DNA of 26,600 bases from a virus. The stretch covers positions 1 through 26,600 of the IMG/VR virus record IMGVR_UViG_3300042519_000922. The stretch is one strand, 5' to 3'. Positions 4,311-22,564 of this stretch are shown one piece after another (the stretch's first letter is position 1; each line of letters opens with the position of its first letter). A model generated the notes under the pieces. It did not search any database and was not told the DNA's origin. It worked only from the letters and a program-made list of their open reading frames with translations. The translations under genes were made by a program, and so were the position numbers.

Positions 4311-5029
4311 TGTTTTATTTCTAAAATAATTTGATTTATTCTTTGTGCCATTAGTACCTGAGTTTCTGTGTCAGTATGATATGGATCATTTTCTGGCTTT
4401 CCTGTTTTGTAGTAGTTGAACATAGGTTCAGCAAAATTTGTGTCAGTGAGCTCAATTGGAGTTATTCCAGCATTGAGTATTTTTTGGTGCCAGTGTTGAA
4501 ACATCCACGAATCAACTTCATCTTGTAGTCCTTCGTGAAACAAATGCTTCAGATATGCATCTATGGCTTGCAATTGATCTTTTGATATATTCACTGTGGA
4601 ATTTTTATCAAGTCCTTGCCACACTGTGGAAAAAATTCCTGCGTTGTTGTCTGGTGTTCCAACGCCTCGATCTGTAACTATTTTACTATTGTGACCAACA
4701 TATTTACAATAAGTGCTTTCGTCTCCAGAAAATGGGTATATAAAATTTTTTAATCCATTCTCAACATTAAATGTCTGATTAACTATTAAATTTATTCTAC
4801 CAGACCATGTTTTATGATATGTCACGTAACGGCATCCAATACTAATTGCCTCCCTTATTTGAAAACAAATACCCAGGTTACTCATACTACCACGAGCTAG
4901 ATTTAATACTTTATAGCCAAATTGATCTTGTAAAATTTGACTGTAATGATCTCGTTCTCCAGTCTTGGGATTACCATTTTTTGGGGCACAACTAAAACTA
5001 TCGCCACATACTATAATATCGTATTTCAT
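4307..5029 (-). CDS. SGNH/GDSL hydrolase-like protein, 240 aa
   Basis: The start is ATG 5029, which makes an ATGA overlap with the uvsW stop; an in-frame ATG 15 bases further up is less likely. Block I, GDSFS (residues 9-13, Ser11 as nucleophile), sits right after the first strand. The block with NLARGSMSN (near 43-51) fits the Gly/Asn region, and DPYHTDTETQVLMAQRI near the C-terminus supplies the Asp-x-x-His pair. SGNH enzymes deacylate or acylate carbohydrates and lipids. In a phage rich in glycosyltransferases, a sugar O-acetyl (trans)esterase is the natural guess. No signal peptide or membrane segment is present, so it should act in the cytoplasm. Like its downstream neighbour it is AT-rich and appears to be cargo attached to uvsW. 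Confidence 0.6.
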   Translation of the reverse strand: MKYDIIVCGDSFSCAPKNGNPKTGERDHYSQILQDQFGYKVLNLARGSMSNLGICFQIREAISIGCRYVTYHKTWSGRINLIVNQTFNVENGLKNFIYPFSGDESTYCKYVGHNSKIVTDRGVGTPDNNAGIFSTVWQGLDKNSTVNISKDQLQAIDAYLKHLFHEGLQDEVDSWMFQHWHQKILNAGITPIELTDTNFAEPMFNYYKTGKPENDPYHTDTETQVLMAQRINQIILEIKQ

Positions 5030-6495
5030 AATATCTTCATCCAATCAAGTTTTTCTTGTGTAAAGGGATAGTTGGCTTCCTTGTAGAATTGTTTACGTTT
5101 GGTCAAGTGACGCTTGGCAAATTTACATGTGGAAGTTATGTCCCAGATTTGAACATGGTCTTTGTCTTCTGCTTTGCGTATTCCACGACCGATGCTTTGG
5201 ATAACACGTACAAAACTTTTGCCAGGCTCCACCAATACAAGATTAAAAATACGGGGAATATTGATGCCCACAGCAGCCACGCCATAGGTTGCCACAATAA
5301 TTTTATCTGTTGCTTCAGCCACTTCGTCATATTCTGCCTGCCTCTTTGATCCCTTGGTTGCACCCGACACAAACACTGCTTTGTCACCCAACCTTGCAAC
5401 CAGTTGTCTACCACACTCAGTACGGTCTACCAGCACTAGAGTGTTGCCTGTTTCGTTTACTTGACGCACCAAGTCTGCCATGGTGTCCAGTCTTCCAGAC
5501 TCTTCCAGCAAGTATTTGAGCTCGCTTTGATAGTCCTTGTACTCCACGTGATCAATCAACTGCACAATGTTCACATGGCAGTTGGCCAACACACCTTGTT
5601 GTTGCAGTTCACTGGCACTGAGCTTGCCAATAACAGGGCCAAGACTGACCAGCAGTGCTTGGCTTTCAAACTTTTCTTTGGGCACAGTTCCAGTCAAACC
5701 CCAGCGAATTGGCACTCTAGCCATTACGCCTGTTAACAAGGTTTTGAGTGCATCTGCCTTGGCCATGTGTACTTCGTCCACAATCACGCACACCACATCT
5801 TCAAGAAACTCACCTATGGTACAGTCGCCTACTCCAGCCTTGGTATTCTTCAACAAGTTGTTTAGACTCTGCCAAGTGCATATTGTGTGTGTGCGTCCGT
5901 ATTCTTTTCTGTCGCCAAAGTACACGCCAACATCTTGTTGCATGTTGATGTAGTCTGCTTCAGTTTGTGTTACTAAACTCTTGTTGGGCACAATAACAAT
6001 ACTGCGTCCATAAGGTGCCACAGCATTGCTCAAGGCTGCTGTCATAATGGTTTTGCCTGCACCTGTGGCCACTTCTTGTATGCACTGTGGGTTGGCCAAG
6101 AAGTTGTTGATGATTTCCACTTGGTAGTCACGCAACATGATAGGCTCACCTGCGGCCGGGTGTGTCTTAGGCCACTTCACATGTTCAAAACTTGTTTCAG
6201 TTACTGATTCAAAGTTAAATGTGTTCGAATAGTCACGCTGGTCATCCAGTTCAACATCATAGTCAAACTTTTCCAATATGGGCATGATCTCTGGCAACAG
6301 GTTCACATAGGTGCTGCCACCTAGTTGGAAGTATGCTACCTTGCCATCCCATCGTCCTAAACGAACTGCTGGCAAATAACGTGCGGCAGGGTTTTCATAT
6401 TTGAAAGCATTGACCAAGGCCTTGCGAGCATCCAAGTCCAGTCCTTCAATCTTGATGTTTACTTCGTCACGTATTTGTATTGTGCATCTTTTCAT
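5026..6495 (-). CDS. uvsW: UvsW-like superfamily 2 helicase, 489 aa
   Basis: The protein has an N-terminal nucleic-acid-binding part (residues 1-110, including LGRWDGKVAYF) and two RecA-like helicase lobes. Motif I is ATGAGKT (143-149), motif II DEVH (240-243), motif III LTGT (267-270) and motif VI QSIGRGIRKA (433-442). T4 UvsW is 503 aa and has the same layout; it unwinds and migrates branched DNA (R-loops, forks, Holliday junctions) and helps switch from origin-dependent to recombination-dependent replication. The open frame extends to 6603, but the extra 36 residues would read through the terminator hairpin, so ATG 6495 is the start. No Shine-Dalgarno is visible; a promoter-like sequence lies directly upstream. 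Its end overlaps the SGNH-like gene (ATGA). Confidence 0.92.
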   Translation of the reverse strand: MKRCTIQIRDEVNIKIEGLDLDARKALVNAFKYENPAARYLPAVRLGRWDGKVAYFQLGGSTYVNLLPEIMPILEKFDYDVELDDQRDYSNTFNFESVTETSFEHVKWPKTHPAAGEPIMLRDYQVEIINNFLANPQCIQEVATGAGKTIMTAALSNAVAPYGRSIVIVPNKSLVTQTEADYINMQQDVGVYFGDRKEYGRTHTICTWQSLNNLLKNTKAGVGDCTIGEFLEDVVCVIVDEVHMAKADALKTLLTGVMARVPIRWGLTGTVPKEKFESQALLVSLGPVIGKLSASELQQQGVLANCHVNIVQLIDHVEYKDYQSELKYLLEESGRLDTMADLVRQVNETGNTLVLVDRTECGRQLVARLGDKAVFVSGATKGSKRQAEYDEVAEATDKIIVATYGVAAVGINIPRIFNLVLVEPGKSFVRVIQSIGRGIRKAEDKDHVQIWDITSTCKFAKRHLTKRKQFYKEANYPFTQEKLDWMKIL

Positions 6496-6502
6496 GTAGT
6501 AT

Positions 6503-6531
6503 ATAGTAACACATGCACAAACAAAAGTCAA
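6503..6531 (-). promoter_or_regulatory. Candidate promoter for uvsW
   Basis: TTGACT (6526-6531) and TACTAT (6503-6508) are separated by 17 bases on the minus strand. The -35 overlaps the U-tract of the terminator. The predicted transcription start is next to ATG 6495, which would give a leaderless uvsW message. The -10 is only a 4/6 match. Confidence 0.35.
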
Positions 6532-6554
6532 AAAAACAGGGACCGAAGTCCCTG
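6530..6554 (-). terminator. Rho-independent terminator with UUCG loop
   Basis: On the minus strand a perfect 7-bp stem CAGGGAC/GTCCCTG encloses a TTCG tetraloop and is followed directly by seven T. This is a textbook intrinsic terminator. It closes the transcript carrying the AAA ATPase and the 30-residue membrane peptide, and lies before uvsW. Confidence 0.9.
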
Positions 6555-6562
6555 TTGTAAAG

Positions 6563-6590
6563 CCCGGGGCGGAGCCAACCAATCCCCGGG
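6563..6590 (-). other. GC-rich hairpin upstream of the terminator
   Basis: Arms CCCGGGG (6584-6590, read on the minus strand) and CCCCGGG (6563-6569) form a perfect 7-bp GC stem with a 14-base loop. It lies 8 bases before the terminator stem, after the stop of the 30-codon gene. It has no T-run of its own; it may protect the 3' end of the message or assist termination. Confidence 0.6.
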
Positions 6591-6599
6591 AAACTCCAC

Positions 6600-6692
6600 T
6601 CACTCACCAATCATCAAAATCACAAATGCCAACAATACTCCTAACACGGGGTGGCCAAAAAACACTAGCATTAATACGGCCACCCAAGCCAT
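6600..6692 (-). CDS. 30-residue predicted membrane peptide
   Basis: ATG 6692 follows the AAA ATPase stop (TAA 6694-6696) by one base and reads to TGA 6600-6602. The product begins MAWVAVLMLVFFGHPVLGVL and continues LAFVILMIGE: nearly all hydrophobic, long enough for one membrane span with a short Gly-His-Pro break near the middle. Translational coupling to the ATPase is implied by the TAAcATG arrangement. The gene sits before a terminator, so it is the last product of that transcript. Function unknown; possible roles are a membrane anchor, a small modulator of host membrane proteins, or superinfection-type inhibition. The reading frame has no internal stop and a composition unlikely by chance. 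Confidence 0.6.
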   Translation of the reverse strand: MAWVAVLMLVFFGHPVLGVLLAFVILMIGE

Positions 6693-8525: not shown

Positions 8526-9275
8526 CTAACACCAGTTGTTTGCAATCACAGGATCAGCAGTGCATTCGTGTGGTTTGGGCTTTCCGTGAAATACTAATAT
8601 GCTGGTATCACCACCAATGTATGCGTTGGAACCTGAGCCAGGTGCATTGGGTTTTCGTGTGGAAAAATTGTAACCGCCGTCTCTTACTTGCCATCGCCAA
8701 CTTTGTAAATGTTGTTGATCAAAATGTCTGCGTTGATTGGGATCAATGGCCACCTCCAGGTAATCTTGATCTCCAGGATATTTTACAACTGTTCTGTTGA
8801 TGTCTAATTGATCAAACTCGTGCCATACATGGGCAAACTTTGAAACGTTCCACCACATTACACTGCTGTTCATGCCCGAATAACTTTTGCGTTGAAGATA
8901 CCTAAAGTCTCTAATGGTCCAAAAGCATTCTGTACTCAACGCTGGGATCCAACTCAAATCATTTATGATCACACAGTCAAGGTCAAAGTACAACAAATTG
9001 CCCGAGTAGTGTTCAGGGTTGAACAACTGCATTTTGTACCACCATTCGCGTTTGGGTCCCGAAATGCCTGGCCATTCTTTTACAGCGTGTTTGATCATGT
9101 GTGGTGGCACTGATCTATCCTGCTCGGTGTACACATGAAAACGTATGCCATCAGGCAAATGTCTTGTCAACATATTGTACAGTTTTTCCACATACACCCA
9201 GTCGTAGCCAGTGCCATGTATCACACATGCACAATCAGTTATGTTGTCAAGGCGGGGGCGATTCTTTTTAGCCAT
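8526..9275 (-). CDS. GT-A-fold glycosyltransferase (GT8-like), 249 aa
   Basis: Residues 95-103 (LYFDLDCVI) carry the D-x-D metal/nucleotide-sugar site (D98, D100) after a conserved KREWWYKMQLF segment. SSVMWWN and the GDQDYLE block follow at about 137-174, and FHGKPKPH near 229-236 resembles the C-terminal His-Gly-Lys-Pro phosphate contact of GT8 enzymes. The predicted reaction is transfer of a hexose or similar residue from a nucleotide sugar; acceptor unknown. No signal peptide or membrane segment, so a cytoplasmic enzyme. It overlaps the KpsC-like gene by 37 bases and ends right beside the repeated promoter cassette. Confidence 0.75.
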   Translation of the reverse strand: MAKKNRPRLDNITDCACVIHGTGYDWVYVEKLYNMLTRHLPDGIRFHVYTEQDRSVPPHMIKHAVKEWPGISGPKREWWYKMQLFNPEHYSGNLLYFDLDCVIINDLSWIPALSTECFWTIRDFRYLQRKSYSGMNSSVMWWNVSKFAHVWHEFDQLDINRTVVKYPGDQDYLEVAIDPNQRRHFDQQHLQSWRWQVRDGGYNFSTRKPNAPGSGSNAYIGGDTSILVFHGKPKPHECTADPVIANNWC

Positions 9276-10090
9276 AGTCCTTCTCTTAGTTCTTCAACAG
9301 TGTATTCAGTGTGGCATATTTTTGCCAACCACAGTTCTCTATCTATCGTGTAAGGTTGTTCAATGTCAGGCATACCCACTGCAACAGGGTATGCCAGACT
9401 ACTGTGGGCTACAATGGGTCTGCATCCTGCAATACCTGCTTGTATGCCCGGTCCTGAATTGTGATTCACAACTGCATGGCAGTTGAAGTGCATGTCAAAA
9501 CTGTCGTAAGTGTTAGCCACGGGTCTAGCAACTTCCATTGTGGTATTCTCAGGCATGTATGGCATTCGCAGTGGACTACGTGGATGTGCTCGTATGCATA
9601 TGGGACGATCAGTTGAGTTGCGTAGTTGTTGAACTTGCATCAACACCCACGATTCCATGCTGCCTATGCCAGCAACTTGCAAACTGTTTCTGTGCTGTGC
9701 GGCAATGATGATTTCTGGTCGTGGATTAACTTGTGTGGCTAGACTTATTTGTAACTTTTTAGGGCGACTCATATCCAGATTGTGCTCATGTCCGTAATAG
9801 CCATCCCTGGTGATGTGATTTACTGCCAGTTTCCAAGTCTGTCCACGATACAATGCACCGATGTCTATCACAATCACAGGTTTATTTTGTTTGCGGTAGT
9901 GCTCATACACTGCTTGATTGGTTTTCATTCTGCCGTGCCACAACACTGACCAAATCACTGCGGCATCTGCAGTCATGGAATTCTCTTGTGTTTGTATGCC
10001 TGCGGATTGGCAACAATCTAAGAAGGCACTCATCACAGGCCGGCTGTTCATGGCACATTGGGCAGGAAAATAGGCTATGGATTTGATCAC
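9239..10090 (-). CDS. KpsC/KpsS-like (GT-B) transferase, paralogue 1, 283 aa
   Basis: Best start is GTG 10090 (IKSIAYFPAQCAMN follows); the open frame continues to 10126 but would run under the divergent gene. The C-terminal half has CIRAHPRSPLR, NHNSGPGIQAGIAGCRPIVA and a terminal Trp-Leu-rich helix. This pattern (His-Pro strand, Asn-Ser-x-x-x-x-x-Ala block, Gly-x-Pro strand) occurs in capsule-polysaccharide transferases of the KpsC/KpsS group and in CDP-glycerol-type GT-B enzymes. Likely role: adding a sugar or sugar acid in a surface glycan; the donor is unknown. It is one of five related genes in this island. A 13-base gap separates it from the divergent + strand gene, so no ordinary promoter fits between the two. 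Confidence 0.6.
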   Translation of the reverse strand: MIKSIAYFPAQCAMNSRPVMSAFLDCCQSAGIQTQENSMTADAAVIWSVLWHGRMKTNQAVYEHYRKQNKPVIVIDIGALYRGQTWKLAVNHITRDGYYGHEHNLDMSRPKKLQISLATQVNPRPEIIIAAQHRNSLQVAGIGSMESWVLMQVQQLRNSTDRPICIRAHPRSPLRMPYMPENTTMEVARPVANTYDSFDMHFNCHAVVNHNSGPGIQAGIAGCRPIVAHSSLAYPVAVGMPDIEQPYTIDRELWLAKICHTEYTVEELREGLWLKRIAPALTT

Positions 10091-10091
10091 T

Positions 10092-10098
10092 GTAAATA
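10092..10098 (+). promoter_or_regulatory. Candidate T4-late-type promoter element (GTAAATA)
   Basis: GTAAATA followed by 5 bases and ATG 10104. T4 late promoters use TATAAATA about this far before the transcript start. There is no Shine-Dalgarno before this gene. Same spacing as the element at 16438-16444. Short motif, may be chance. Confidence 0.3.
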
Positions 10099-10103
10099 CG
10101 CTT

Positions 10104-10886
10104 ATGAAATACACTGTAGTTACCACTTTTAACGCTGAAGGTTACAAGACTTACGGCCGCCGCATGATCGAAACTTTTTTGCAAACATGGCCCCGAGATA
10201 TACTGCTCAAAGTATACGCTGAGGGCTGCACTGTTACCGAAACTGCACCTAACTTGCAAGTGCTGGACCTAGAGGGTGCAAGTGCAGACTTGGTTGCATT
10301 CAAAAACAAATGGCGTAATGTGCCCAAAGCCAATGGTGATATTGGTCCTGGAAGCGAACGCAAAGCATTCAAATGGCAAGCAGTGCGCTTTGCTCACAAA
10401 GTGTATGCCATATTCCATGCCGCCCGTCACTGCACTACAGATTGGTTGATTTGGATGGATGCAGACATGGTGTGTCATAGTCCAATCACTGTGCAAAAGA
10501 TTTCCTCATTCTTTCCAGATGATAGAGAACTGTGTTATGCAGGCCGTAGCAACAAGTTTACCGAATGTGGATTGTACGGCATGAATTTGAAACGTGGCCC
10601 TGTACAAAAGTTCTTGGCAGAGTTCCAACGCATGTATGATGATGCTGACAACGGTATCTTTACGCTGAGCGAATGGCACGACAGCTATGTGTTTGACGAT
10701 GTCAAAAATCGCAGTGGCCTGGCAGAGCTCAACTGGAGTGCAGGCCTAATCAACGGTGAAGGTCATCCGCTTATAAACTGTGAATGGGGTGCATACATTG
10801 ACCATCTCAAAGGCAAACGCAAAGGCGATGGTCGTAGCAAACTCAAGGACCTTGTGGTCCGCCGCACTGAAAAATACTGGCAATGA
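10104..10886 (+). CDS. GT-A-fold glycosyltransferase-like protein, 260 aa
   Basis: After an N-terminal TVVTTFNAEGYKTYGRRMIETF strand-helix unit, the nucleotide-sugar site is WLIWMDADMV (D119-x-D121 metal pair). A GPGSERKAFKWQAVRFAHK segment precedes it and may hold acceptor or sugar contacts. The C-terminal part (INCEWGAYIDHLKGKRK) keeps a conserved His. Soluble; no membrane segment. It probably transfers a sugar to a phage- or host-derived glycan. A longer start at 10077 exists, but ATG 10104 gives the conserved-looking beginning. It is first of four + strand genes and couples to the next by ATGA (10883-10886). Confidence 0.7.
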   Translation: MKYTVVTTFNAEGYKTYGRRMIETFLQTWPRDILLKVYAEGCTVTETAPNLQVLDLEGASADLVAFKNKWRNVPKANGDIGPGSERKAFKWQAVRFAHKVYAIFHAARHCTTDWLIWMDADMVCHSPITVQKISSFFPDDRELCYAGRSNKFTECGLYGMNLKRGPVQKFLAEFQRMYDDADNGIFTLSEWHDSYVFDDVKNRSGLAELNWSAGLINGEGHPLINCEWGAYIDHLKGKRKGDGRSKLKDLVVRRTEKYWQ

Positions 10887-11686
10887 TATTTTTAAGCAAG
10901 AATGGCGATGACGAATACATTGACATGTATGCACATGGGCTCGGACTTGAGAGTACACCCTTAGAAACTTGGCGTTACGAAGACAGTGACGAGCCACTCA
11001 TGCTACGTGGCATTATGAAACACAAAATCATCAAGCAGTGTTGGGCAGATGATAGACCATTTAGATACATGGACTCGGGCTATTTGGGCAATCGCCCTGG
11101 CCATAAAAATCCTCACGGTTGGAAACACTGGCATAGGATTGTTCCCAACAATTTACAACACGATCAAGTTATCCCACGACCTAGTGATCGCTGGAATCAA
11201 CTCGGACTAGAAGTTGCCAATCGCCGACGTGGCAGTCATATATTGATTGTGGCACCTGACGAAAAGCCTTGCAAGTTTTACGACATAGAATTAGACACAT
11301 GGTTGGCAGAAACTGTAGCCACAATCAAACAGCATACAGATCGACCCATTGTTGTACGTGAACGCAACAAAAGTCGCATGGATAGAAAGACCAATCGTGT
11401 AGAAAAAGCCTTAGACGATGTACATGCCGTGGTAACGTTCAACAGCATAGCAGGCACAGAAGCTGTCTTAGCAGGTGTGCCTGTGTTTGCCATGGCACCC
11501 AGCAATGCTGCTAGACCAGTGAGCAACACTGACTTGACCCGGATAGACAATCCGTGGTTTCCCGATCGTGATCAAATATTGGACTGGGCATATCATTTGG
11601 CGTATGGCCAGTTTCACATAGACGAATTCAAGAACGGACAAGCAGAAAAGATACTTAAACAAACAGAGGAGATATTAAGTGCATGA
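10883..11686 (+). CDS. KpsC/KpsS-like transferase, paralogue 2, 267 aa
   Basis: Middle segments RYMDSGYLGNRPGHK and HRIVPNN, then PIVVRERNKSR, a HAVVTFNSIAGTEAVLAGVPVF block, and the C-terminal motif WAYHLAYGQFHIDEFKNG. Paralogue 4 (14024-14986) carries the same architecture with local identities (YIDTGYFGN, HRVTRND, FSSIAAGEALL, AYCQFTEAEM), so these two are the closest pair of the five. The FNSIAGTEA block fits the UDP/CMP-sugar site of GT-B-type capsule transferases. ATG overlaps the preceding TGA; its stop lies 8 bases inside the next gene. Probable cytoplasmic glycan-building enzyme; substrate unknown. Confidence 0.6.
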   Translation: MIFLSKNGDDEYIDMYAHGLGLESTPLETWRYEDSDEPLMLRGIMKHKIIKQCWADDRPFRYMDSGYLGNRPGHKNPHGWKHWHRIVPNNLQHDQVIPRPSDRWNQLGLEVANRRRGSHILIVAPDEKPCKFYDIELDTWLAETVATIKQHTDRPIVVRERNKSRMDRKTNRVEKALDDVHAVVTFNSIAGTEAVLAGVPVFAMAPSNAARPVSNTDLTRIDNPWFPDRDQILDWAYHLAYGQFHIDEFKNGQAEKILKQTEEILSA

Positions 11687-12329
11687 ATTTCAAGGGTGGT
11701 GGTTCCCAGATGCTGAATCACACTTTCCAAAGATGTTGAAGAAAAGCATAGACAAAGGCGGACCTGCTGAGTACCAATATCAAGTTCGAGACCGTAGTAT
11801 GACCTATGTTAAAAAACGTGGCATAGCCCTGGACATCGGTGCCAATGTGGGATTGTGGAGTCGCAGTCTTTGCAAAAATTTCAAAACTGTTGTTGCGTTT
11901 GAGCCAGTAGCCATGTTCAGAGAATGCCTAATACGAAATGTTGTTGCCAACAACCTGCAAATCAAAGACTTTGCATTGGGAGATACACGCACAACTGCCA
12001 CCATGATCATAACAGAAGGCAATACTGGGCACACGCACATTGATCCTGCTACACTGGGCACAGGCGAAACTGAGGTATACAGACTGGATGATCTGGACTT
12101 GGACACAGTAGACTATATCAAAATGGACTGCGAAGGCTACGAGTATCGTATCTTGCAAGGTGCAGAGGCAACTATCAAAAGATGTAGACCTGTTGTTGTG
12201 GTAGAACAAAAGCCACATGATGCATATAGTAGCCAGTATGGACAACACGCTGCCATTGAACTCATGCAGAGTTGGGGCATGGTGCGGTTAGACCAAGTCA
12301 AGGATGATTGGATCATGGGGTGGAAGTAA
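11679..12329 (+). CDS. FkbM-family methyltransferase, 216 aa
   Basis: LDIGANVGLWS (residues 51-61) is the SAM-binding motif I, E75 (AFEP) the ribose contact, and DYIKMDCEGYEYRILQGAE (145-163) the diagnostic FkbM motif. FkbM enzymes O-methylate sugars, polyketides or lipids; in this gene cluster methyl-capping of a sugar is the likely job. The start is GTG 11679, supported by AGAGGAG ending 8 bases upstream; an ATG four bases on is out of frame. It overlaps the previous stop by 8 bases and the next start by about 10. Full-length for the family. Confidence 0.82.
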   Translation: MHEFQGWWFPDAESHFPKMLKKSIDKGGPAEYQYQVRDRSMTYVKKRGIALDIGANVGLWSRSLCKNFKTVVAFEPVAMFRECLIRNVVANNLQIKDFALGDTRTTATMIITEGNTGHTHIDPATLGTGETEVYRLDDLDLDTVDYIKMDCEGYEYRILQGAEATIKRCRPVVVVEQKPHDAYSSQYGQHAAIELMQSWGMVRLDQVKDDWIMGWK

Positions 12330-13117
12330 AGTATGCATGGTCGCCAGCAGTCAAAGGGGATTTTGAAAAATGGACTTTGGAGCCGTGGCGGCGTAAGGGA
12401 CTAAAAACATTTGATCTAATAGAAGATATTCCCGAAGATCATGTGCTGGTAGTAAGCCACTTTGCTCCGTGGTGGAGCCCTCTCAAAGAATGGATTGCCA
12501 ACGAACGCCCTTGGATTGAAATAGAGTTTGGTTATTGGGGAGACAATGACCCCAGACGCAACACTCGACGGGTTACTTACTGTGGGCATCATAATCTCAA
12601 TATGCAAACTCGACCTTGGCCTAGATCGCAGTTGTTTAACGAACCACGTGCCATGCACAATTGGCGTACTACACCTGGTCAATACATTGTAATTCCCAAG
12701 CCTGTAAAAGAAATACTAAAACAGAGAACTGGAGAAGACATTGTAGAATGGTGTGAAAAAATGGAAAGCACAGTCAGGCAATACTGGGACGGCGAGATTG
12801 TATGGCGAAACAAAGGCGGCAGCAAACCTGGACGTTGGAACAGTTTTGTACGATTGTTGGATGATGCACATGCTGTGGTAGGAGATCGGACCATGGCCTG
12901 TGTGGAGGCTTGTCTAATAGGCGTGCCTGCTTACACTATAGATCATAGCATGACCAGCTTGCTCATGGGGGGAGTAGAAAACTTGAGTAGCATACAACAT
13001 CCCGATCGATCAGACTGGTGGGATCATATTTGCTGGAGTCAATTTCATATTTGGGAATTCACTGACTGTGGAAAGTCTGTGGCCGACTTGGTTGAATCGT
13101 ACCAGATTCACAAATAA
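12320..13117 (+). CDS. KpsC/KpsS-like transferase, paralogue 3 (divergent), 265 aa
   Basis: Contains a HAVVGDRTMACVEACLIGVPAYTI block and CWSQFHIWEFTDCG, equivalent to the FNSIA...GVP and AYGQFH...EF segments of the other paralogues, but lacks the His-Pro strand. The N-terminal half (SHFAPWWSPLKEWI, EFGYWGDNDP) differs from the others. Likely a transferase or an inactive relative in the same glycan pathway. The start is uncertain: GTG 12320 or TTG 12308, both overlapping the FkbM gene. Its end converges on the minus-strand paralogue at 13108 with a 10-base overlap, so no terminator lies between them. Confidence 0.55.
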   Translation: MEVKYAWSPAVKGDFEKWTLEPWRRKGLKTFDLIEDIPEDHVLVVSHFAPWWSPLKEWIANERPWIEIEFGYWGDNDPRRNTRRVTYCGHHNLNMQTRPWPRSQLFNEPRAMHNWRTTPGQYIVIPKPVKEILKQRTGEDIVEWCEKMESTVRQYWDGEIVWRNKGGSKPGRWNSFVRLLDDAHAVVGDRTMACVEACLIGVPAYTIDHSMTSLLMGGVENLSSIQHPDRSDWWDHICWSQFHIWEFTDCGKSVADLVESYQIHK

Positions 13118-14031
13118 GGCAAAAACTTTTGATAAACACGGCCGGCTCGTGCATCCGCATCGCTCCAATGTGCGGCTGCCAAATCATACATCCATTGCTC
13201 TCTAGAGAATATTTCTGGAGTTTCAATCTTATTCACATCCTTGTTGGCCACTGACCAAGCCACACAACTGGAATCATCTGCAAACACAGGAATACCTTCA
13301 CACACTGCTGCCACACTGGCACTGCTGTTGAAAAACACTGCCGAATGTGCGCCCTGCAAGTTGTCAATCAGTCGACTTTGAGTGGGCTCTAATATGACTA
13401 CATTTTGTCTTTTGCCCATTTTGCTGTTGTACATAGCAAAGTCTGTCATGTTGTATTGACCTGGATGTGGTCGAACATAAATTTGTCTACTGCTCACTGA
13501 TCTAATTTGATGTATTTTATCGTGCAACCAGGTCATTGGATCCAGAGTTTTCATTGCAAACCCACCGTCTCTTTGCATGCAAATCAAAACATGCCCGGCT
13601 TGATTGACTTGGGCTGGTTTTAACTGCACTCCCAAGGTGCGACTGATTTCCAACCATTTGGTAGCATCACTGTTGCGGTTGGCATACTCAGCACGGTCAT
13701 AAAATGGACCGTTGAGACTGTATCGCAAGTAATTGCCATGATCATCAAGATACTTCCAACATGACGCATCTATGCACATGGTTTGAAAACCCAGCCTTCG
13801 CTGTTCAGGAATGATTTGTTTGCGCAGTGTGATGTTACGACCACCAGTGTTTGTGGTAGCCCACCCCAGCATCACAGCCAACCGACTGGGAGTATATTTG
13901 TGTTCCCATTCTACCTTGACTGTGTGTCCTGTTGCTCGCACTCCATCAGCAAAACTTTCCAGGCATTGTATTTTCCTAGAATGTTTTTGTGGATTAGCAA
14001 CACTGCTAACGTAGACTACAACATCAACCAC
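13108..14031 (-). CDS. KpsC/KpsS-like transferase, paralogue 5, 307 aa
   Basis: The open frame extends upstream to 14241, but the first part is an out-of-frame reading of the preceding gene; GTG 14031 overlaps its stop by 8 bases and gives VVDVVVYVSSVANPQKHSRK. The C-terminal half has IYVRPHPGQYNM, HSAVFFNSSASVAAVCEGIPVFAD and an AAAHWSDADARAG tail, matching the His-Pro, FNS...A and Gly-x-Pro elements of capsule transferases. GGRNITLRKQ and a Cys/Trp-rich middle are specific to this copy. Probable sugar transferase of the same pathway. Acceptor and donor unknown. Confidence 0.6.
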   Translation of the reverse strand: MVDVVVYVSSVANPQKHSRKIQCLESFADGVRATGHTVKVEWEHKYTPSRLAVMLGWATTNTGGRNITLRKQIIPEQRRLGFQTMCIDASCWKYLDDHGNYLRYSLNGPFYDRAEYANRNSDATKWLEISRTLGVQLKPAQVNQAGHVLICMQRDGGFAMKTLDPMTWLHDKIHQIRSVSSRQIYVRPHPGQYNMTDFAMYNSKMGKRQNVVILEPTQSRLIDNLQGAHSAVFFNSSASVAAVCEGIPVFADDSSCVAWSVANKDVNKIETPEIFSREQWMYDLAAAHWSDADARAGRVYQKFLPYL

Positions 14032-14986
14032 CCTGAAGGATTCTCCATGCTGTGCCGTCACGCATTTCTGCTTCAGTAAACTGACAATACGCCATGTGTG
14101 CTGCCCAACGTTCCACTTCATCCAGTGTGGGAACATAAGGTTCGTTGATAGCATCCAAGGTCTGACTGCACAGGGCTGCGGCTGCATTGGGTCCCAGTGT
14201 GATAGCAGGTTTGCCATTGAGCAAGGCTTCGCCTGCGGCAATACTGGAGAATGTGACCAGGCAATGTATGTCTTGTTCTAGTGCATGTGCCATTGAGTCG
14301 TCGCTGGTTCTGGCAGTGCGGCCAGGTTTGCGGCGAACAACAACTTCTCGATCTGTTTTACCAGCAAGTTCTTTAAGCACATTGTCCAGCCACTGTTCTA
14401 GATCAATGTCATACAAGTTTAACAACTTTTGACTGGGCGGTGCCAACAATATCTTGCTGCCACGATAGAACTTGCGTGGTTGAAATCCTGTTGCCCCTAG
14501 TCTGTCTCTGGGCCTGTCTATAATAGGTCCAAAGTTTTGCACATCATTTCTAGTCACACGATGAAATGTTTTCTTCTTGCCGTTGCCAAAATAACCTGTG
14601 TCTATGTAGTAAAAGTCTCTACCAGCTTCTTTGCAAGCTCTCATCTCTTTGCGTTTGGTAATGCCACGCAGGATAACCGGTGTCATTGACTTTTCACTCT
14701 TGCTCCAAGTGGTTATTTGTCCACCTGCACCTATGGTAAAACTTTGTAAGATAGGATCAAACATTTTTCCCTTTTCTGCGTATCTAAATTCACTGTCAAT
14801 GGCATGCACCGCTTGATTATCCAATGCACGTATTTTTTCTGACAATGCTTCTATGCTCAATCCGTAGTAGTCGCCTGCTGGATCCACACGATACTTGATC
14901 AAATCTCTAAATAATTCAGCCAACTCCGGTGGCACCATATCCAATTCATGTCTCGGCAGCGGTGCTAGTTCTTGTTCATCGTCCAT
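14024..14986 (-). CDS. KpsC/KpsS-like transferase, paralogue 4, 320 aa
   Basis: ATG 14986 (MDDEQELAPLPRHELD) is preferred to GTG 15004. After an ~95-residue acidic N-terminal extension the protein matches paralogue 2 segment by segment: VILRGITKRKEMR, YYIDTGYFGN, HRVTRND, REVVVRRKPGRT, HCLVTFSSIAAGEALLNGKPAITLG and WAAHMAYCQFTEAEMRDG. The pair has kept gene order of domains but is on opposite strands, consistent with duplication and inversion. Role inferred as glycan transferase in the cytoplasm. Overlaps the GT-A-like gene upstream by 11 bases. Confidence 0.62.
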   Translation of the reverse strand: MDDEQELAPLPRHELDMVPPELAELFRDLIKYRVDPAGDYYGLSIEALSEKIRALDNQAVHAIDSEFRYAEKGKMFDPILQSFTIGAGGQITTWSKSEKSMTPVILRGITKRKEMRACKEAGRDFYYIDTGYFGNGKKKTFHRVTRNDVQNFGPIIDRPRDRLGATGFQPRKFYRGSKILLAPPSQKLLNLYDIDLEQWLDNVLKELAGKTDREVVVRRKPGRTARTSDDSMAHALEQDIHCLVTFSSIAAGEALLNGKPAITLGPNAAAALCSQTLDAINEPYVPTLDEVERWAAHMAYCQFTEAEMRDGTAWRILQGG

Positions 14987-15671
14987 GTTGTGTTCTCTGT
15001 TCACAATAATCAGTTAGCAATCTTTCCTTGTGCCAATCTTCTGCAAAGTTGCCTGCATCAGCAAACTCATGAAAGCATGGTGTACCTAGCGTGTAGTGTA
15101 CCAGTTTTGCCAAGGGATTCCATTCATACTCAACATCCAACCAGTTCCATTCTGGGGGCAGTTCACCAATGCGTTCATCTTCTAGCCAGGTGAATCTGTG
15201 CAGTTCTGCACCTGTTGATTTTTGCACGAACTCCGGTGTTAGTTTACGATTGGGAAAACTACTACAGTTCCACAATATCACACTTGACCAATTCTTGCGC
15301 GGATAGTCTTCGTTTTTGCTGCCAAGATACTTTTCAGTCATGCGTGTTTTGTAGTCATGTTTTACAACCATGACGTCTTTGTAAGGATTTTGTAACTTCC
15401 ATAGTTCTACGACATCGCCACGCAAAATCATGTCACCGTCAATGAATATGGCCCATCCTGAGTAGTCCATCAAGTGTGGCACAAGAAAACGGCTGTAGAT
15501 AAATTGATTGCTGCCATCAGTGTGTGTTTCATCATAGTCTCGGAACAAGTTCAATGCCACAGGAACGATGGCCACTGGCTGACTGGCATGTCTAATAATT
15601 GAGTTCACGCATGTATGATATGCAATAGCTTCTCTAGGATCATATCCTACAAATACTGGAATTGGTTTCAT
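14976..15671 (-). CDS. GT-A-fold glycosyltransferase-like protein, 231 aa
   Basis: Starts MKPIPVFVGYDPREAIAYHT, a phrase typical of small GT8-type proteins. Residues 75-82 (IFIDGDMI) give the D-G-D metal site, and SRFLVPHLM before it corresponds to the sugar-nucleotide-binding helix. VILWNCSSF and LEDERIGELPPEWNW follow, with a HYTLGTPCFHEF region as C-terminal His. Family members act on nucleotide sugars, acceptor unclear. ATGA overlap (15668-15671) with the cytidylyltransferase-cupin gene suggests the two proteins are made together: the fusion could make an activated sugar and this enzyme use it. Confidence 0.75.
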   Translation of the reverse strand: MKPIPVFVGYDPREAIAYHTCVNSIIRHASQPVAIVPVALNLFRDYDETHTDGSNQFIYSRFLVPHLMDYSGWAIFIDGDMILRGDVVELWKLQNPYKDVMVVKHDYKTRMTEKYLGSKNEDYPRKNWSSVILWNCSSFPNRKLTPEFVQKSTGAELHRFTWLEDERIGELPPEWNWLDVEYEWNPLAKLVHYTLGTPCFHEFADAGNFAEDWHKERLLTDYCEQRTQHGR

Positions 15672-16432
15672 TTACGTTCAATATCATCTTCAACACAGCG
15701 TTCACCGTATTGTATTTCAATCAACTTCAAAGGTTGATCAGTTTCGTTACACAGTTGATGCCACTCATTGACTTTGATAAATGTGTGCTCATGCATGGTC
15801 AGTTGGCATTTGACTTCTTGATCAGTGCTGGCCTCATCCAATGTGTATACCGTGGCTTCGCCCTCAGCCACAAACCAAAACTCTGCACGACTATCGTGTC
15901 GTTGCATGCTCAAGCATGTTTTGGGCATCACAGTGAGTTCTTTTAATTTTGTATTAGCACCAACTTCGTGCAACACACGATAGTAACCCCAGGCACGATC
16001 AGTTTTGGGTGTTTTCCACTCTGTGAGAATCCACGAACTTGAATTCATCTTGTGCTCGCCGCCTACACCAAATTGAAAGTCCACATCATCAAATACCATT
16101 TCGGGACAGTTGACAGCAGTACGGTCACCACCATTGGCAAATATAAATTTGGTTCGAGGCACAGTATAATGTGCTCGGGCAACACGGATAGCATCTATGG
16201 ATGTGTTGTCTGCATCATCAAATTCAATTACCTTGTCTACCATGCGTAGATTTTCGATGATGGCTCTTCGTTCGCTGGCAGACAAAAACGGTCGACCTTT
16301 TTTGCGTGTGAGCCAAGCGTCTGAATTAATACCAACCACAAGCCTATCTCCCAGTGCCCGAGCGGCTTCAAAATAGGCAATGTGCCCAGAATGTAGCGGA
16401 TCAAAGCCGCCTGTGACAATTACAATTTTCAT
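15668..16432 (-). CDS. Cytidylyltransferase-cupin fusion, 254 aa
   Basis: Residues 1-~130 are a nucleotidyltransferase of the HIGH/RfaE-type family: GGFDPLHSGHI (8-18, H14 and H17 as HxGH), GINSD (35-39), KKGRPF and GGDR (101-104). Residues ~145-250 are a cupin like the C-terminal half of type-II mannose-6-phosphate isomerases: RAWGYYRVL, SMQRHDSRAEFWFVAEG (H179, E184) and NEWHQLCN (H225) as likely metal ligands, then YGERCVEDDIER. The protein would join activation of a sugar phosphate by CMP transfer with isomerisation or sensing of a sugar phosphate. Bifunctional sugar enzymes are known, but I do not recall this exact pairing. No Shine-Dalgarno; an ATAAATA element sits 5 bases upstream of ATG. 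Confidence 0.78.
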   Translation of the reverse strand: MKIVIVTGGFDPLHSGHIAYFEAARALGDRLVVGINSDAWLTRKKGRPFLSASERRAIIENLRMVDKVIEFDDADNTSIDAIRVARAHYTVPRTKFIFANGGDRTAVNCPEMVFDDVDFQFGVGGEHKMNSSSWILTEWKTPKTDRAWGYYRVLHEVGANTKLKELTVMPKTCLSMQRHDSRAEFWFVAEGEATVYTLDEASTDQEVKCQLTMHEHTFIKVNEWHQLCNETDQPLKLIEIQYGERCVEDDIERK

Positions 16433-16437
16433 ACAGA

Positions 16438-16444
16438 TATTTAT
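16438..16444 (-). promoter_or_regulatory. Candidate late-type promoter element (ATAAATA)
   Basis: ATAAATA followed by 5 bases and ATG 16432 on the minus strand, embedded in a short inverted repeat (CAGATA/TATCTG, 16434-16447). Same spacing as the + strand element at 10092. Weak by itself. Confidence 0.3.
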
Positions 16445-16971
16445 CTGCGTATATTTTGATGCTCAAGTATCAACCGCAGTTCAGGGCTGCCATTGGGATT
16501 TTTTACTGGGTTAGCAGTAAAGTTCACAGACTCTGACCATGTAATGTTGCACTGATCAAACTGTTGTTGTATTTTTTGCAGCCACCAGTCTGCATTTTCT
16601 ATGATCAAGTGTGCATTGCGTCCGTCGGGCAAGCGTTTTTTTGCAGGATAACAAGCAATGATCAAGAAGGCTGCACGAGAAAACTTGCTTTGCATGAGCG
16701 TCAACGACTGATCTAATTGATCCGGTTCAAAGTGTTCTATCACATCACAACTGACCAGACAATCATAGGTGCCAGTAGGCACAACCATATAATCAGGATT
16801 GCCAGGATCATAGCCTCCCAGTTCTTGAATACTGGGGAAATCTTGTTCCACGCGGTTGAGAAGATTGCCATTTGCACACCCCCAATCTACTAGACTCCAA
16901 GGTTGGTATTTGGTTACAAAATTATGTACCAAGTCATACTTGGGCAAGAGTTCTTTGTACATTCCTGTCAT
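16441..16971 (-). CDS. Class I SAM-dependent methyltransferase, 176 aa
   Basis: ATG 16971 forms an ATGA overlap with the 40-codon gene; an earlier in-frame start is less likely. DWGCANGNLL (residues 29-38) is motif I, GYDPGNPDY follows as the acidic loop, and VSCDVIEHFEPDQL is the post-I motif typical of small-molecule methyltransferases (UbiG/methyltransferase-11 type). The C-terminal part is helical. Placed at the head of the sugar island, a sugar or lipid methylation role is plausible; the substrate is not readable. Its stop lies 8 bases before the nucleotidyltransferase-cupin start. Confidence 0.75.
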   Translation of the reverse strand: MTGMYKELLPKYDLVHNFVTKYQPWSLVDWGCANGNLLNRVEQDFPSIQELGGYDPGNPDYMVVPTGTYDCLVSCDVIEHFEPDQLDQSLTLMQSKFSRAAFLIIACYPAKKRLPDGRNAHLIIENADWWLQKIQQQFDQCNITWSESVNFTANPVKNPNGSPELRLILEHQNIRR

Positions 16972-17090
16972 AGTGTTATATATGATCGATGCACCAACCA
17001 CCAGAATGCTACCCAGGCTTCAAAGAAGAACAGCAACAAAAAGATTTCCATCTCTGCCAAATCCCGTTGCCAGCGTTCTTCATCAGTCAT
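16968..17090 (-). CDS. 40-residue predicted single-span membrane peptide
   Basis: ATG 17090 follows the uvsY-like stop (TAA 17092-17094) by one base; the frame ends at TGA 16968, overlapping the next ATG. An N-terminal polar segment (MTDEERWQRDLAEME) precedes one hydrophobic stretch, IFLLLFFFEAWVAFWWLV, ending HRSYITL. The charge pattern (acidic/mixed before, basic after) fits one membrane helix. The same TAA-C-ATG junction after a replication gene occurs at 6692-6696. Function unknown. Coupling on both sides argues that it is translated. Confidence 0.62.
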   Translation of the reverse strand: MTDEERWQRDLAEMEIFLLLFFFEAWVAFWWLVHRSYITL

Positions 17091-17091
17091 G

Positions 17092-17544
17092 TTATACCGT
17101 GATGTCTTCCATGCCTGCTGTGCGCAGTCTTACCACGTGACCCATTTGCCACTGCTTGGTGTCTAGGCCTTTCATTATGCCCAACCAACGATTGCGTAGC
17201 AGTGCCACTTCGTTGATGATGGTTTCAAAGTCCACAACTTCTTCTTCACCGTCCACGTACTTTTCAGCATCACGTGCGGTCAAAGCACGAGCATACCCTT
17301 CAAGATACTTCTTGAAATGTCGAGTACGTATCTTTCTCAATTGAATATTGAGAAAGTTCAACACAGCTTCAATCTCTTGTAACTGGTTGAACCTATGCTC
17401 AGTTATGCCTGGCAAGGCAGTGATGTTCTTTTCCACCAAGCCGCCAATTTTGCAGTCACGCTTGGCATCTGTGAGTTCTGACTCAAAGTGTGCAATGAAG
17501 TCAGGTATGTTACTAAGATCTGCTACAACTTTACTGTACCACAT
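17092..17544 (-). CDS. UvsY-like recombination mediator (tentative), 150 aa
   Basis: A 150-residue, mostly helical protein. Its C-terminal half (EKYVDGEEEVVDFETIINEVALL, then RNRWLGIMKGLDTKQWQMGHVV) lines up by pattern with the T4 UvsY C-terminal region (a D/V-rich turn, a long helix, then IKSRGFAIKHI). T4 UvsY is 137 aa, binds ssDNA and gp32 and loads UvsX. The central basic segment (NIQLRKIRTRHFKKYLEGYARAL) fits a DNA/gp32-binding role. Genomic context (near uvsX, 32 and uvsW) supports the call; sequence similarity by eye is weak, so it may be another conserved protein. Start ATG 17544, no Shine-Dalgarno; ends one base before the 40-codon peptide. Confidence 0.5.
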   Translation of the reverse strand: MWYSKVVADLSNIPDFIAHFESELTDAKRDCKIGGLVEKNITALPGITEHRFNQLQEIEAVLNFLNIQLRKIRTRHFKKYLEGYARALTARDAEKYVDGEEEVVDFETIINEVALLRNRWLGIMKGLDTKQWQMGHVVRLRTAGMEDITV

Positions 17545-17550
17545 GTGCGT

Positions 17551-19035
17551 TTACCCAATCTTTATATTCAATTTTAAATTATCAATTTCTTCTTTGAGAC
17601 TTGTTAAGTCTGCCCAACTTCCTGGGTATCTTAAATCCAGCAGGAGTATTTTTAATTCTAAATATCTTCTGAATCGTTCTTTTAAAGTTAGCGTGGGATT
17701 AGACGATATATCAAAAAAATGAGTTGCATAATTTTCATTGTGTATTCCCAACTCGTGTTTCATGAGATCCAGTGGTGTATTTTTTAACAATACATAAGGA
17801 TGTGCCAAGGTTACCCCAATTACAGTGTCATCTAATAGATATTTTTGATATCTTTTAAACATCTGTATATTGTCGTCATGATCTTCCAGCGTTTCGGTTG
17901 GATACGCAGTCATCATTAATAGTGCATTTTTAATCTTGTACTTTGAACACATTTCTAAATGATAGTCTATGTCTTGATTAGAAAACTTTTTACCAATATG
18001 TTCACGCACACGATTACTGCCTGACTCAATGCCAATTTGTATGTTGTTGCAGCCTGCGGCAGACATTTTTTGATATAGGTATTCATGATGTTGTGATTTA
18101 GGTCTAATAATAAACTGCCCTGAAAAAACAAGGTCTTCTAGTTGTTTATTTTTTGCCTTGAGATCAACTATTCGATCATTCAGATCTACAAATTGTTTTA
18201 ATGATCCATTGATCAGACTGTCCGTGAACACAAACTGTTTGATGCCGGTTTCTTCAAAATGTTGTTTGATTTCTTGTACAATGTTTTCAGCACTGCGATA
18301 TCTAAACTTTTTCCAGATATGCCCTACATCACAAAAACTGCATCGTCGTACACATCCTCGGCTGCCAGTTATGCCAATTGTGGGATTGATATTGATGCCT
18401 GGATTATAATTAGAAAAATTAATTTCTCGATATGTGGGGAATACACACCTATCTAAATTATCAATTTGCGGAGCCCAGGACTCACTAAGTGATAGATTAG
18501 AATTTAATCCTAGTTCGTTGTGTCCTTTAAAAAATCTGTCAAGTACGTATTCGCCTTCGCCTAATACATAGTAATCAACTAAATTCTGTTCTAAAAATAA
18601 TCTACCTACTGTTTTATTTTCTTCAATTTCATAAGATATGCCTGATCCACCTATGATTATTTTAACATTAGATTTTGATCTAATTTTTTGCAGTAACAGT
18701 TGAGTGATTAAAATTTGTTGGTAACTAAACAACGTTATAGCAATTAAATCAGCAGCTGAATCAGCCAGCATGGTTTCTACAGCCATGTCAATTAATGAAT
18801 CAATCTTGTCAAGAAGATCTGAATGTTCAGGATTTTTTAATATGGGTAAAAAAACATAGGCATGATTCCATACAGTATCGCCTAAGTGTTGTTTTAGAAA
18901 CACGTTCAAGTCAAATATGTTGTATTGTATCGAATTACTACGACATACACCTGCTATAAATCCAATAGCCGCAGGAGGCTTTTCAACGGTCAATAATCCT
19001 GACGAAACAATCAATACTTGCTTAGGTATCAACAT
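17551..19035 (-). CDS. B12-binding-type radical SAM enzyme, 494 aa
   Basis: The N-terminal ~170 residues look like a Rossmann B12-binding domain (VEKPPAAIGFIAGVCR, IIIGGSGISYEI, VLGEGEYVLDRFF), although no DxHxxG lower-ligand His is seen. The radical SAM core follows with GCVRRCSFCDVGH, C228-x3-C232-x2-C235 binding the 4Fe-4S cluster, then FVFTDSLINGS, NIQIGIESGS and a helical tail. Such enzymes methylate, ring-contract or cyclise unactivated carbons; the product here cannot be told. The gene is visibly AT-richer than its neighbours and stands between two core genes, so it is probably horizontally gained cargo. It overlaps the following beta-rich gene by 14 bases. Confidence 0.82.
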   Translation of the reverse strand: MLIPKQVLIVSSGLLTVEKPPAAIGFIAGVCRSNSIQYNIFDLNVFLKQHLGDTVWNHAYVFLPILKNPEHSDLLDKIDSLIDMAVETMLADSAADLIAITLFSYQQILITQLLLQKIRSKSNVKIIIGGSGISYEIEENKTVGRLFLEQNLVDYYVLGEGEYVLDRFFKGHNELGLNSNLSLSESWAPQIDNLDRCVFPTYREINFSNYNPGININPTIGITGSRGCVRRCSFCDVGHIWKKFRYRSAENIVQEIKQHFEETGIKQFVFTDSLINGSLKQFVDLNDRIVDLKAKNKQLEDLVFSGQFIIRPKSQHHEYLYQKMSAAGCNNIQIGIESGSNRVREHIGKKFSNQDIDYHLEMCSKYKIKNALLMMTAYPTETLEDHDDNIQMFKRYQKYLLDDTVIGVTLAHPYVLLKNTPLDLMKHELGIHNENYATHFFDISSNPTLTLKERFRRYLELKILLLDLRYPGSWADLTSLKEEIDNLKLNIKIG

Positions 19036-19822: not shown

Positions 19823-20878
19823 TTATTCCTCCGTTGCGTCGGCTGTACTTACCTCTGTCTTGATGTTCTTGAAATCTACCATGACTTTGTCCAAGCACCC
19901 ATCATCATTCTTTTCCCAGGCTTTGCGGAACTTCTTGATAATCTCGCCATCACTGGTGGTAAACACCAGGCTGTTGCCTTCACGCTTGAGCAGCTCTTTT
20001 TTCTCAATCAAGTCTACCAAGCCTGAGTACGGACTCATACCTGTGGTGTAAGGAATCTTGACCTGCACACCTTCAAACGGTTTGGCATAGCGTGTTTTCA
20101 TGACTTTACAGCCTGCACGAATACCGTTGACGTCACTCACTTTGTTACCGTCCTCGTCCTCTTTGAGCTTCATCTTCTTCATTGCAACAACGATACTACT
20201 GGCGTAAATGAAACCTTGACCTCCGGAGATTTTATCATCAGGGTCAAACATGTCCTGACTTGCGTATGTGTGGTTGGTACAAACCAAGCCTACGTTGTAT
20301 GAGCCAAACATGTTCACACAGTTACGCACCAATGCTGTGAGTGCCTTGGGTTTACGACCCAGGTCACCCTTCATTTCGCCAGCATCGAACTGGTTGACGT
20401 CTGTGGGAGTCAATAGCATGCCCAGACTGTCAATCACAAACATGACCTTGGGACGTTCGCCTTCGGGTAGTGCTTTGTAGTCGCTCATGAATGTGGAGAT
20501 GGTCTTGGCCACATCATCAATCATGGCCATGCTCAACTTCAGCAATTTGCTTTCGCTTGTGTCCACACCTAGTGCTTTGAGCCAGTCTTCATCAAGTGCG
20601 TTCTCCGAATCAATCAGCACCACAAAGATGCCTTGCTCTTGTGCGTTCTTCACAATATTGCCTGAGCAGATGTATGATTTGCCTGCACCCGAGTCGCCAG
20701 CAAACACTGTGACCTTGCCCAAGGGAATGCCTCGATTGAAGTCACCCGAGATCAAGTAGTTCAATGCATAGTTGCCTGTCGAGATCCAGTCTGTGGGATC
20801 GTTAAATCCTATTGACAACCCGTCAATGCTTTTTGTGATTTCCTTACGGAACTTGCTTACGTCAAATGGTTTTCCCAT
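19823..20878 (-). CDS. uvsX: UvsX RecA-like recombinase, 351 aa
   Basis: Walker A GDSGAGKS at residues 61-68, catalytic Glu92 in IDSENALD, Walker B KVMFVIDSLG at 144-153, and the GGQGFIYASS segment at 219-228 as the DNA-binding loop. These are in the order and spacing of T4 UvsX (391 aa); this copy is shorter at the C-terminus. UvsX forms filaments on ssDNA coated by gp32, helped by UvsY, and drives strand invasion for recombination and replication restart. An ATG at 20878 overlaps the twitch-type radical SAM gene by 17 bases, so cargo sits directly in front of it; a Shine-Dalgarno-like AAGGAAG lies 6 bases before the ATG. Confidence 0.95.
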   Translation of the reverse strand: MGKPFDVSKFRKEITKSIDGLSIGFNDPTDWISTGNYALNYLISGDFNRGIPLGKVTVFAGDSGAGKSYICSGNIVKNAQEQGIFVVLIDSENALDEDWLKALGVDTSESKLLKLSMAMIDDVAKTISTFMSDYKALPEGERPKVMFVIDSLGMLLTPTDVNQFDAGEMKGDLGRKPKALTALVRNCVNMFGSYNVGLVCTNHTYASQDMFDPDDKISGGQGFIYASSIVVAMKKMKLKEDEDGNKVSDVNGIRAGCKVMKTRYAKPFEGVQVKIPYTTGMSPYSGLVDLIEKKELLKREGNSLVFTTSDGEIIKKFRKAWEKNDDGCLDKVMVDFKNIKTEVSTADATEE

Positions 20879-22019: not shown

Positions 22020-22564
22020 GGATAATTTACACCCAGTGATAACTCACTGACTTCTAAATTAGGGCCAGCAGTATCCAATATATGCACAACAGTTTTTGCC
22101 CATTCATCAACATCAGCATATGGTATGGGACTAACCTGCCCCGGTTGTGTAGCAACTGCACCCGGTCTGATTAAAACAAGTTTGGGCCAATCTTGCAAGT
22201 GTTGCAATTGATAGTGTGCTTGTTCTAATGTTACTTTTTGATTTCTGTATTCAATCATGTCCAATCCTGGCAGTGTACTCACTGGTTGCGAAGCCATAAT
22301 GGTGCTGATGTTTATGATACGTTTGCCTGCTTGGCCTTTCCACAATCTATACATTTCAAATAGCAATTCTGTTTGTGCAAATCCAGCCTGTGCATTGTTT
22401 ATGAACACATCACAAGGTTCAATATTCAACGCTATTTTAGGAATGTTTCTGATGTTGTGTCCATGTCGTTTGCTGAGACCAACAATTTCATGTCCTTGTG
22501 CCTGATACACTTTGGTTAATGCTTGCCCAATACCTGCACTGTGCCCAGTTATTGCTATTTTCAT
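22016..22564 (-). CDS. Short-chain dehydrogenase/reductase (SDR), 182 aa
   Basis: ATG 22564 overlaps the preceding stop (ATGA) and the gene ends in another ATGA. TGHSAGIGQ (residues 6-14) is the Gly-rich NAD(P) site, NNAQAG (near 55) the NNAG-like motif, ISTIMAS the strand with catalytic Ser, and YRNQK the Tyr-x-x-x-Lys pair. The protein is shorter than usual SDRs (240-260 aa), missing part of the C-terminal substrate region. It probably reduces a carbonyl or epimerises a nucleotide sugar together with the two radical SAM proteins that flank it. Confidence 0.82.
   Translation of the reverse strand: MKIAITGHSAGIGQALTKVYQAQGHEIVGLSKRHGHNIRNIPKIALNIEPCDVFINNAQAGFAQTELLFEMYRLWKGQAGKRIINISTIMASQPVSTLPGLDMIEYRNQKVTLEQAHYQLQHLQDWPKLVLIRPGAVATQPGQVSPIPYADVDEWAKTVVHILDTAGPNLEVSELSLGVNYP

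Follow-up and report, generated by a model that had tools for sequence, protein, structure and literature searches.

Gene content of the island

The 26.6-kb virus record IMGVR_UViG_3300042519_000922 (positions 1 to 26,600, hereafter the window) belongs to a T4-like phage, with homologues of UvsW, UvsY, UvsX, and gp32 all found in it. Between the UvsW and UvsY genes lies a glycan island of eleven genes, designated A to K, at positions 8526-17001. A preliminary description based on the letters alone had set its limits at 8526 and 16971; the left one stands, and the right one has to be moved to 17001, because K opens there. Its inventory of three GT-A-like glycosyltransferases with DxD sites, five related GT-B-like proteins, an FkbM methyltransferase, a second methyltransferase, and a fusion enzyme was correct. 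Genes C to F are on the plus strand, A, B, and G to K on the minus strand. The island and its two conserved flanks, the latter recognized also by synteny, are as follows.

UvsW-like helicase, 5026-6603, minus strand: left conserved flank (phrog_16 DNA helicase, E 1.6e-70)
A, 8526-9275, minus strand: GT-A-like glycosyltransferase, DxD site YFDLD (phrog_1962 glycosyltransferase, E 1.4e-22)
B, 9239-10090, minus strand: KpsC-fold GT-B paralogue of the HP type, start GTG at 10090, assigned by family membership, motif census, and its own clade (support 100/100)
C, 10104-10886, plus strand: GT2-like GT-A glycosyltransferase, DxD site WMDAD, start ATG at 10104 (PF00535, E 7.8e-06, above cut-off)
D, 10883-11686, plus strand: KpsC-fold GT-B paralogue of the non-HP type, assigned by an AlphaFold model and matches to KpsC, WbbB, and KrkA in the PDB
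E, 11679-12329, plus strand: FkbM-family methyltransferase (PF05050, E 3.9e-20; TIGR01444, E 1.5e-25, above cut-off)
F, 12308-13117, plus strand: KpsC-fold paralogue of the non-HP type, the fifth of the family, occupying a variable slot (BLASTP to D, E 6e-16)
G, 13108-14031, minus strand: KpsC-fold GT-B paralogue of the HP type, start GTG at 14031 (AlphaFold model; VIA Z 14.1 to KpsC)
H, 14024-15004, minus strand: KpsC-fold GT-B paralogue of the non-HP type (BLASTP to D, 38% identity, E 1e-49)
I, 14976-15671, minus strand: GT8-type GT-A glycosyltransferase, DxD site FIDGD (PF01501, E 5.2e-06, above cut-off; phrog_28018, E 6.5e-36)
J, 15668-16432, minus strand: nucleotidyltransferase/cupin fusion (PF01467, E 3.9e-15, and PF01050, E 9e-22, both above cut-off)
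K, 16441-17001, minus strand: accessory class I S-adenosylmethionine (SAM) methyltransferase (phrog_24759, E 3.2e-23; PF13489 below cut-off)
UvsY-like recombination mediator, 17092-17544, minus strand: right conserved flank (phrog_231, E 1.1e-12)

The start codons of B, C, and G were chosen by comparison with orthologues, and with these revised starts the apparent overlaps of the B/C and G/H open reading frames mostly disappear; B and C are divergent, with 13 bases between them. The T4-type late promoter TATAAATA has zero matches within the window. The phage collection contains no relative at the DNA level.

A family with the KpsC-type fold

Significant matches in pairwise BLASTP (BLOSUM45) connect all five GT-B-like proteins, so that their likeness is beyond chance and they form one family. 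Besides the D-H and D-F pairs listed above, matches were obtained for D-G (E 6e-13), B-D (1e-8), B-G (2e-8), and F-H (3e-8). No Pfam model exceeds its cut-off in any of the five, and PHROGs and NCBIfam are uninformative. The sequence segments by which the preliminary description linked the five are exact in D only. FNSIA/GVP becomes FSSIA/GKP in H, FNSSA/GIP in G, HNSGP/GCR in B, and DRTMA/GVP in F, and YGQFH..EF has clear variants in F and H only.

The AlphaFold models of D (pLDDT, the predicted local distance difference test score, 89; pTM, the predicted template modelling score, 0.86) and G (88 and 0.85) both show the modified GT-B fold of the retaining Kdo (3-deoxy-D-manno-oct-2-ulosonic acid) transferases of families GT99, GT107, and GT140. 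In Foldseek searches of the PDB, the first 21 matches of D and the first 22 of G are all Kdo transferases. By VIA, the best solved structures for D are WbbB (Z 11.3) and KpsC (10.9), with the next unrelated fold at 8.9, and for G it is KpsC (14.1), with the next unrelated fold at 11.2; the margin is therefore real but modest.

Kdo transferases are defined by a QxxxD nucleophile and a [KR]xHP motif that binds cytidine monophosphate (CMP) (PMC10148158, PMC12887879). The QxxxD aspartate is present in none of the 419 aligned copies of B, D, F, G, and H. The glutamine and [KR]xHP are retained in B (117/117) and G (79/79), as Q and RAHP in B and as invariant QRDGG and RPHP in G, and the residue at Q+4 is never aspartate. 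In D, F, and H, [KR]xHP is missing from all 223 copies and proline replaces the glutamine throughout (126/126, 18/18, and 79/79, respectively). Both motifs are retained in a podovirus protein (L087).

The five thus share the fold (D and G) and the glutamine with [KR]xHP (B and G) with KpsC (GT107), WbbB (GT99), and KrkA (GT140), and differ from them in having lost the nucleophile in every paralogue and the CMP motif in D, F, and H. The Pfam model for KpsC and KpsS, Capsule_synth (PF05159), reaches at best 11.6 bits against a cut-off of 20. This defines a KpsC-fold family, not KpsC itself, so that the label "KpsC/KpsS-like" in the preliminary description holds for the fold but not for membership. 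Judging by the motif, CMP-activated sugars are the probable donors of B and G, whereas D, F, and H would use a different kind of donor.

Conservation and history of the island

In 68 full-span freshwater loci the island is flanked by uvsW and uvsY, and marine phages have it in the same location at 24-48% identity. In the marine contigs, the stretch from UvsY to UvsW still contains J, A, E, I, D/H, G, C, and B. With the block present in more than 100 viral contigs, its recurring synteny rules out mis-assembled host DNA. A scan of bacterial and archaeal genomes, with patterns that catch close relatives only, gave a single match, to a phage-like contig. This contig, PAOW01000003.1 (L089), is binned with a Euryarchaeota metagenome-assembled genome, yet it has UvsW and the phage island; it is probably viral contamination of that bin.

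In the tree, B, D, F, G, and H are each recovered as one clade (support 100/99 or 100/100, except H with 85/77), although the branching order of the paralogues and the placement of F are unsure owing to long branches. The marine contig L089 has one relative on each of the B, G, and D/H lines, so that three or more lines had already separated before freshwater and marine phages diverged. Since each paralogue has its own orthologues and forms an old clade, recent tandem duplication is ruled out, and the strong divergence and the scatter over both strands (D and F plus; B, G, and H minus) are as had been described. B, D, G, and H were found in all 11 large viral records searched, in which no paralogue lies beyond the island. 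A fifth copy, F, is present at 13 of the 68 full-span loci; in other loci, this slot is taken by genes for a GT25 enzyme, a methyltransferase, a radical SAM protein, or a second FkbM protein.

The ratio of nonsynonymous to synonymous substitution rates (dN/dS) is 0.05-0.09 for A to J, which indicates strong purifying selection and hence that all paralogues, F included, are maintained. H and I form a single open reading frame in six loci, which points to their joint action. Island genes are on average 72% identical to the window and backbone genes 87%, the island being lower at 71 of 71 loci, even though the loci were collected via D, a bias that works against this gap. Two known lineages were considered for the window: the moraphages (PMC12619734), to which no link was shown, and the bS21 phages (PMC9723584), with a GC content of 31-34% vs. 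44% here and likewise no link shown.

Predicted sugar activation, transfer, and methylation

The acidic motif is intact in 97/97 orthologues of A, which has no Pfam match, and in 121/121 of C. All 62 orthologues of I fit the search pattern, but 28 of them through a different upstream D.D stretch, so the census is looser for I. E scores above both cut-offs as an FkbM methyltransferase (PF05050, 73.1 bits vs. a cut-off of 22.7; TIGR01444, 90.3 vs. 37.7), with the SAM motif D[IV]GANVG in 121/121 orthologues; K is found in only some relatives.

J joins a HIGH-family nucleotidyltransferase (CTP_transf_like; residues 1-136, window ~16025-16432) to a mannose-6-phosphate-isomerase-type cupin (MannoseP_isomer; residues 144-253, window ~15674-16003). 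Both domains pass their Pfam cut-offs (PF01467, 56.7 vs. 21 bits; PF01050, 77.9 vs. 23.6), and the motifs FDPxHSGH and QxHxxRxE occur in 63/63 orthologues. The N-terminal domain most resembles HldE domain II and glycerol-3-phosphate cytidylyltransferase; for the cupin, the nearest counterpart is the isomerase portion of ManC. All these matches are below the equivalog cut-offs, including TIGR02199 for HldE/RfaE domain II (74.7 vs. 181.5 bits) and TIGR01479 for the cupin; therefore, no particular sugar can be assigned to J. The two-domain fusion was found over 80% of its length in none of 50,697 phage records at E 1e-8, but it does recur in a podovirus contig (L166, see below).

An adenosine diphosphate (ADP)-heptose pathway was rejected as a shared part of the system, a homologue of the HldE kinase being found in one of the 12 records searched, a 331-kb relative. 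In that record, a split HldE-like adenylyltransferase and heptose-7-phosphate kinase and an HldD-like epimerase (L146, 9010-11231) probably constitute a phage ADP-heptose pathway. The same phage has a gene resembling S-adenosylmethionine synthetase between uvsY and the island (30973-32142; L136, 10973-12142), and its product may feed the methyltransferases and radical SAM enzymes.

Surroundings of the island

Outside the island, the window encodes three radical SAM proteins (17551-19035, 20862-22019, and 22561-23529) adjoining UvsY, UvsX, and gp32; the second matches NF033640, a twitch-domain radical SAM model, at 5e-71. The 331-kb relative encodes a dozen or more such proteins. Two hypothetical proteins of the window lack a convincing family match and by eye resemble a sulfotransferase (23510-24136) and an SGNH hydrolase (4307-5044). 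The 331-kb phage also carries two genes for TctC/Bug-like periplasmic binding proteins (L143, ~5502-6554; L146, ~12620-13540). The TctC/Bug family is common in Burkholderiales, and these genes hint at a betaproteobacterial host.

Relatives of the island in other phages

Parts of the gene set occur in unrelated phages. Two contigs of SU10-like podoviruses, L164 and L166, have a C-like gene, a methyltransferase gene, and a G-type gene between the SU10 major capsid protein gene and the SU10-type adaptor gene; L166 additionally has an I-like gene, the J fusion, a DegT aminotransferase, and a radical SAM gene. In L163, a related contig, the terminase follows immediately after the cassette. Caulobacter phage C1 has two family members, an I-like gene, an FkbM gene, and a GT9 gene after the tail-fibre genes and before lysozyme. 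Pelagiphage Mosig has two family members with glycosyltransferase, methyltransferase, and sulfotransferase genes, adjoining those for ribonucleotide reductase and RuvC, a context that is neutral on the question of virion or host as target. The cassettes of the Caulobacter Dolichocephalovirinae, Mosig, and the SU10-like podoviruses thus resemble the island in that their homologous KpsC-fold genes are accompanied by methyltransferase genes and by I- or C-like ones, but hold one or two KpsC-fold copies vs. four or five here and occupy other genome positions.

The T4-like cyanophages S-SSM7, P-SSM2, and S-SCSM1 likewise carry many sugar genes (PMC3037559, PMC9602691), and S-SSM7 has a stand-alone homologue of the N-terminal domain of J with 51% identity, adjoining uvsX. 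In contrast to the lipopolysaccharide (LPS) clusters of cyanophages, the island forms one compact block with a fixed place between uvsW and uvsY; neither the J fusion nor the KpsC-fold family was detected in cyanophage records. The island is a real, conserved, and functional glycan island of an already known kind, the sugar clusters of large phages; what stands out is its KpsC-fold family with altered active sites.

Proposed function and alternatives

The best explanation, to which we give about an even chance, is that the phage-borne pathway glycosylates and methylates virion proteins. It would work in the cytoplasm. J would supply an activated sugar, its cupin interconverting keto- and aldose-phosphate and its HIGH domain adding the nucleotide; the three DxD transferases and the four or five KpsC-fold transferases would then assemble a short hetero-oligosaccharide, which E, and K in some phages, would O-methylate. 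The acceptor would most likely be a capsid or fibre protein, and the methylated, fast-diversifying decoration may shield the particle or tune adsorption. This scheme draws on gene content, homology, fold, motif states, conservation, purifying selection, and gene context, from which we infer the donors, the order of action, the methylation site, the acceptor, and the benefit. According to work cited in PMC12619734, phage-encoded transferases decorate capsid and tail proteins in mycobacteriophages, which offers a parallel by description. The virion is preferred as the target because of the gene context in unrelated phages (L164, L166, and C1). As far as is known, the mycobacteriophage systems of virion glycosylation are simpler than the island.

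Several points weigh against this explanation. In the T4-like lineage the island sits among recombination genes, not virion genes, and the podovirus GT-B protein shares no more than 22-27% identity with G. The phage could also rely on the export machinery of its host, which makes the lack of phage flippase and polymerase genes indirect evidence, and the phage records searched are mostly fragments.

The main rival, rather doubtful but clearly ahead of the others, is that the enzymes remodel the LPS, capsule, or S-layer glycan of the host via its carrier, flippase, and ligase, thereby excluding other phages or stopping the rebinding of released virions. Relatives of KpsC, WbbB, GT25, and FkbM function in surface polysaccharide pathways, the variable slot includes GT25 "LPS biosynthesis" genes, the LPS clusters of T4-like cyanophages have been interpreted in this way (PMC3037559, PMC9602691), and a position in the replication block would fit expression ahead of virion assembly. 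On the other hand, searches of phage records, most of them fragments, turned up neither an initiating lipid-carrier transferase nor a flippase, a Wzy-type polymerase/ligase, or Wzz (PF02397, PF01943, and PF04932 absent in six, PF02706 in four, the 331-kb record included), which argues against a self-sufficient surface polysaccharide pathway. None of the proteins A to K has a membrane-like segment that would anchor it, and part of the set stands in virion operons of unrelated phages. Of the two uses suggested in the preliminary description, host glycan rebuilding is therefore the less supported and virion glycosylation the favoured one, neither being proved.

A soluble glycoside as the product, or glycosylation of a non-virion protein of host or phage, for example to disable a host factor, is unlikely. 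No acceptor is known and many radical SAM proteins lie nearby, as this would allow, but the fast divergence of the island relative to the backbone and the capsid- or fibre-linked relatives suggest an exposed surface.

Sugar hypermodification of phage DNA bases, comparable to the glucosylation or arabinosylation of hydroxymethylcytosine in T4 and RB69, is very improbable. The island does lie among DNA recombination genes, and phage GT-B enzymes acting on DNA exist; however, sets with FkbM and GT8/GT2 are not known from DNA-glucosylation systems, and no thymidylate-synthase-family hydroxymethylase gene was found in 11 phage records, the 331-kb one among them, which argues against base hypermodification as far as such fragmentary records allow. 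That the genes are functionless stuffer DNA, a role suggested for cyanophage LPS clusters (PMC3037559), or scattered unrelated morons is hardly credible in view of their dN/dS, the gene order and catalytic motifs conserved across freshwater and marine phages, and the I-H fusion.

A wider proposal is put forward tentatively: the five proteins may represent a new, essentially phage-borne family with the KpsC/WbbB fold but without double displacement, in which B and G bind CMP-sugars and D, F, and H have changed donor, and the virion glycan may be built by a modular cassette exchanged among unrelated tailed phages. On this proposal B and G, having no nucleophile, must invert or use another retaining mechanism.

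Implications

Sugar genes are common in large phages, and it is seldom known whether they decorate the host or the virion. Here, parts of one pathway can be traced from a conserved replication-block locus in T4-like phages of lakes and the sea into the capsid and tail operons of phages unrelated to them, so that the virion hypothesis can be tested with carriers available in culture, such as the Caulobacter phages and pelagiphage Mosig. The paralogues also provide a natural series of KpsC-fold enzymes from which evolution removed first the catalytic aspartate and later the CMP motif.

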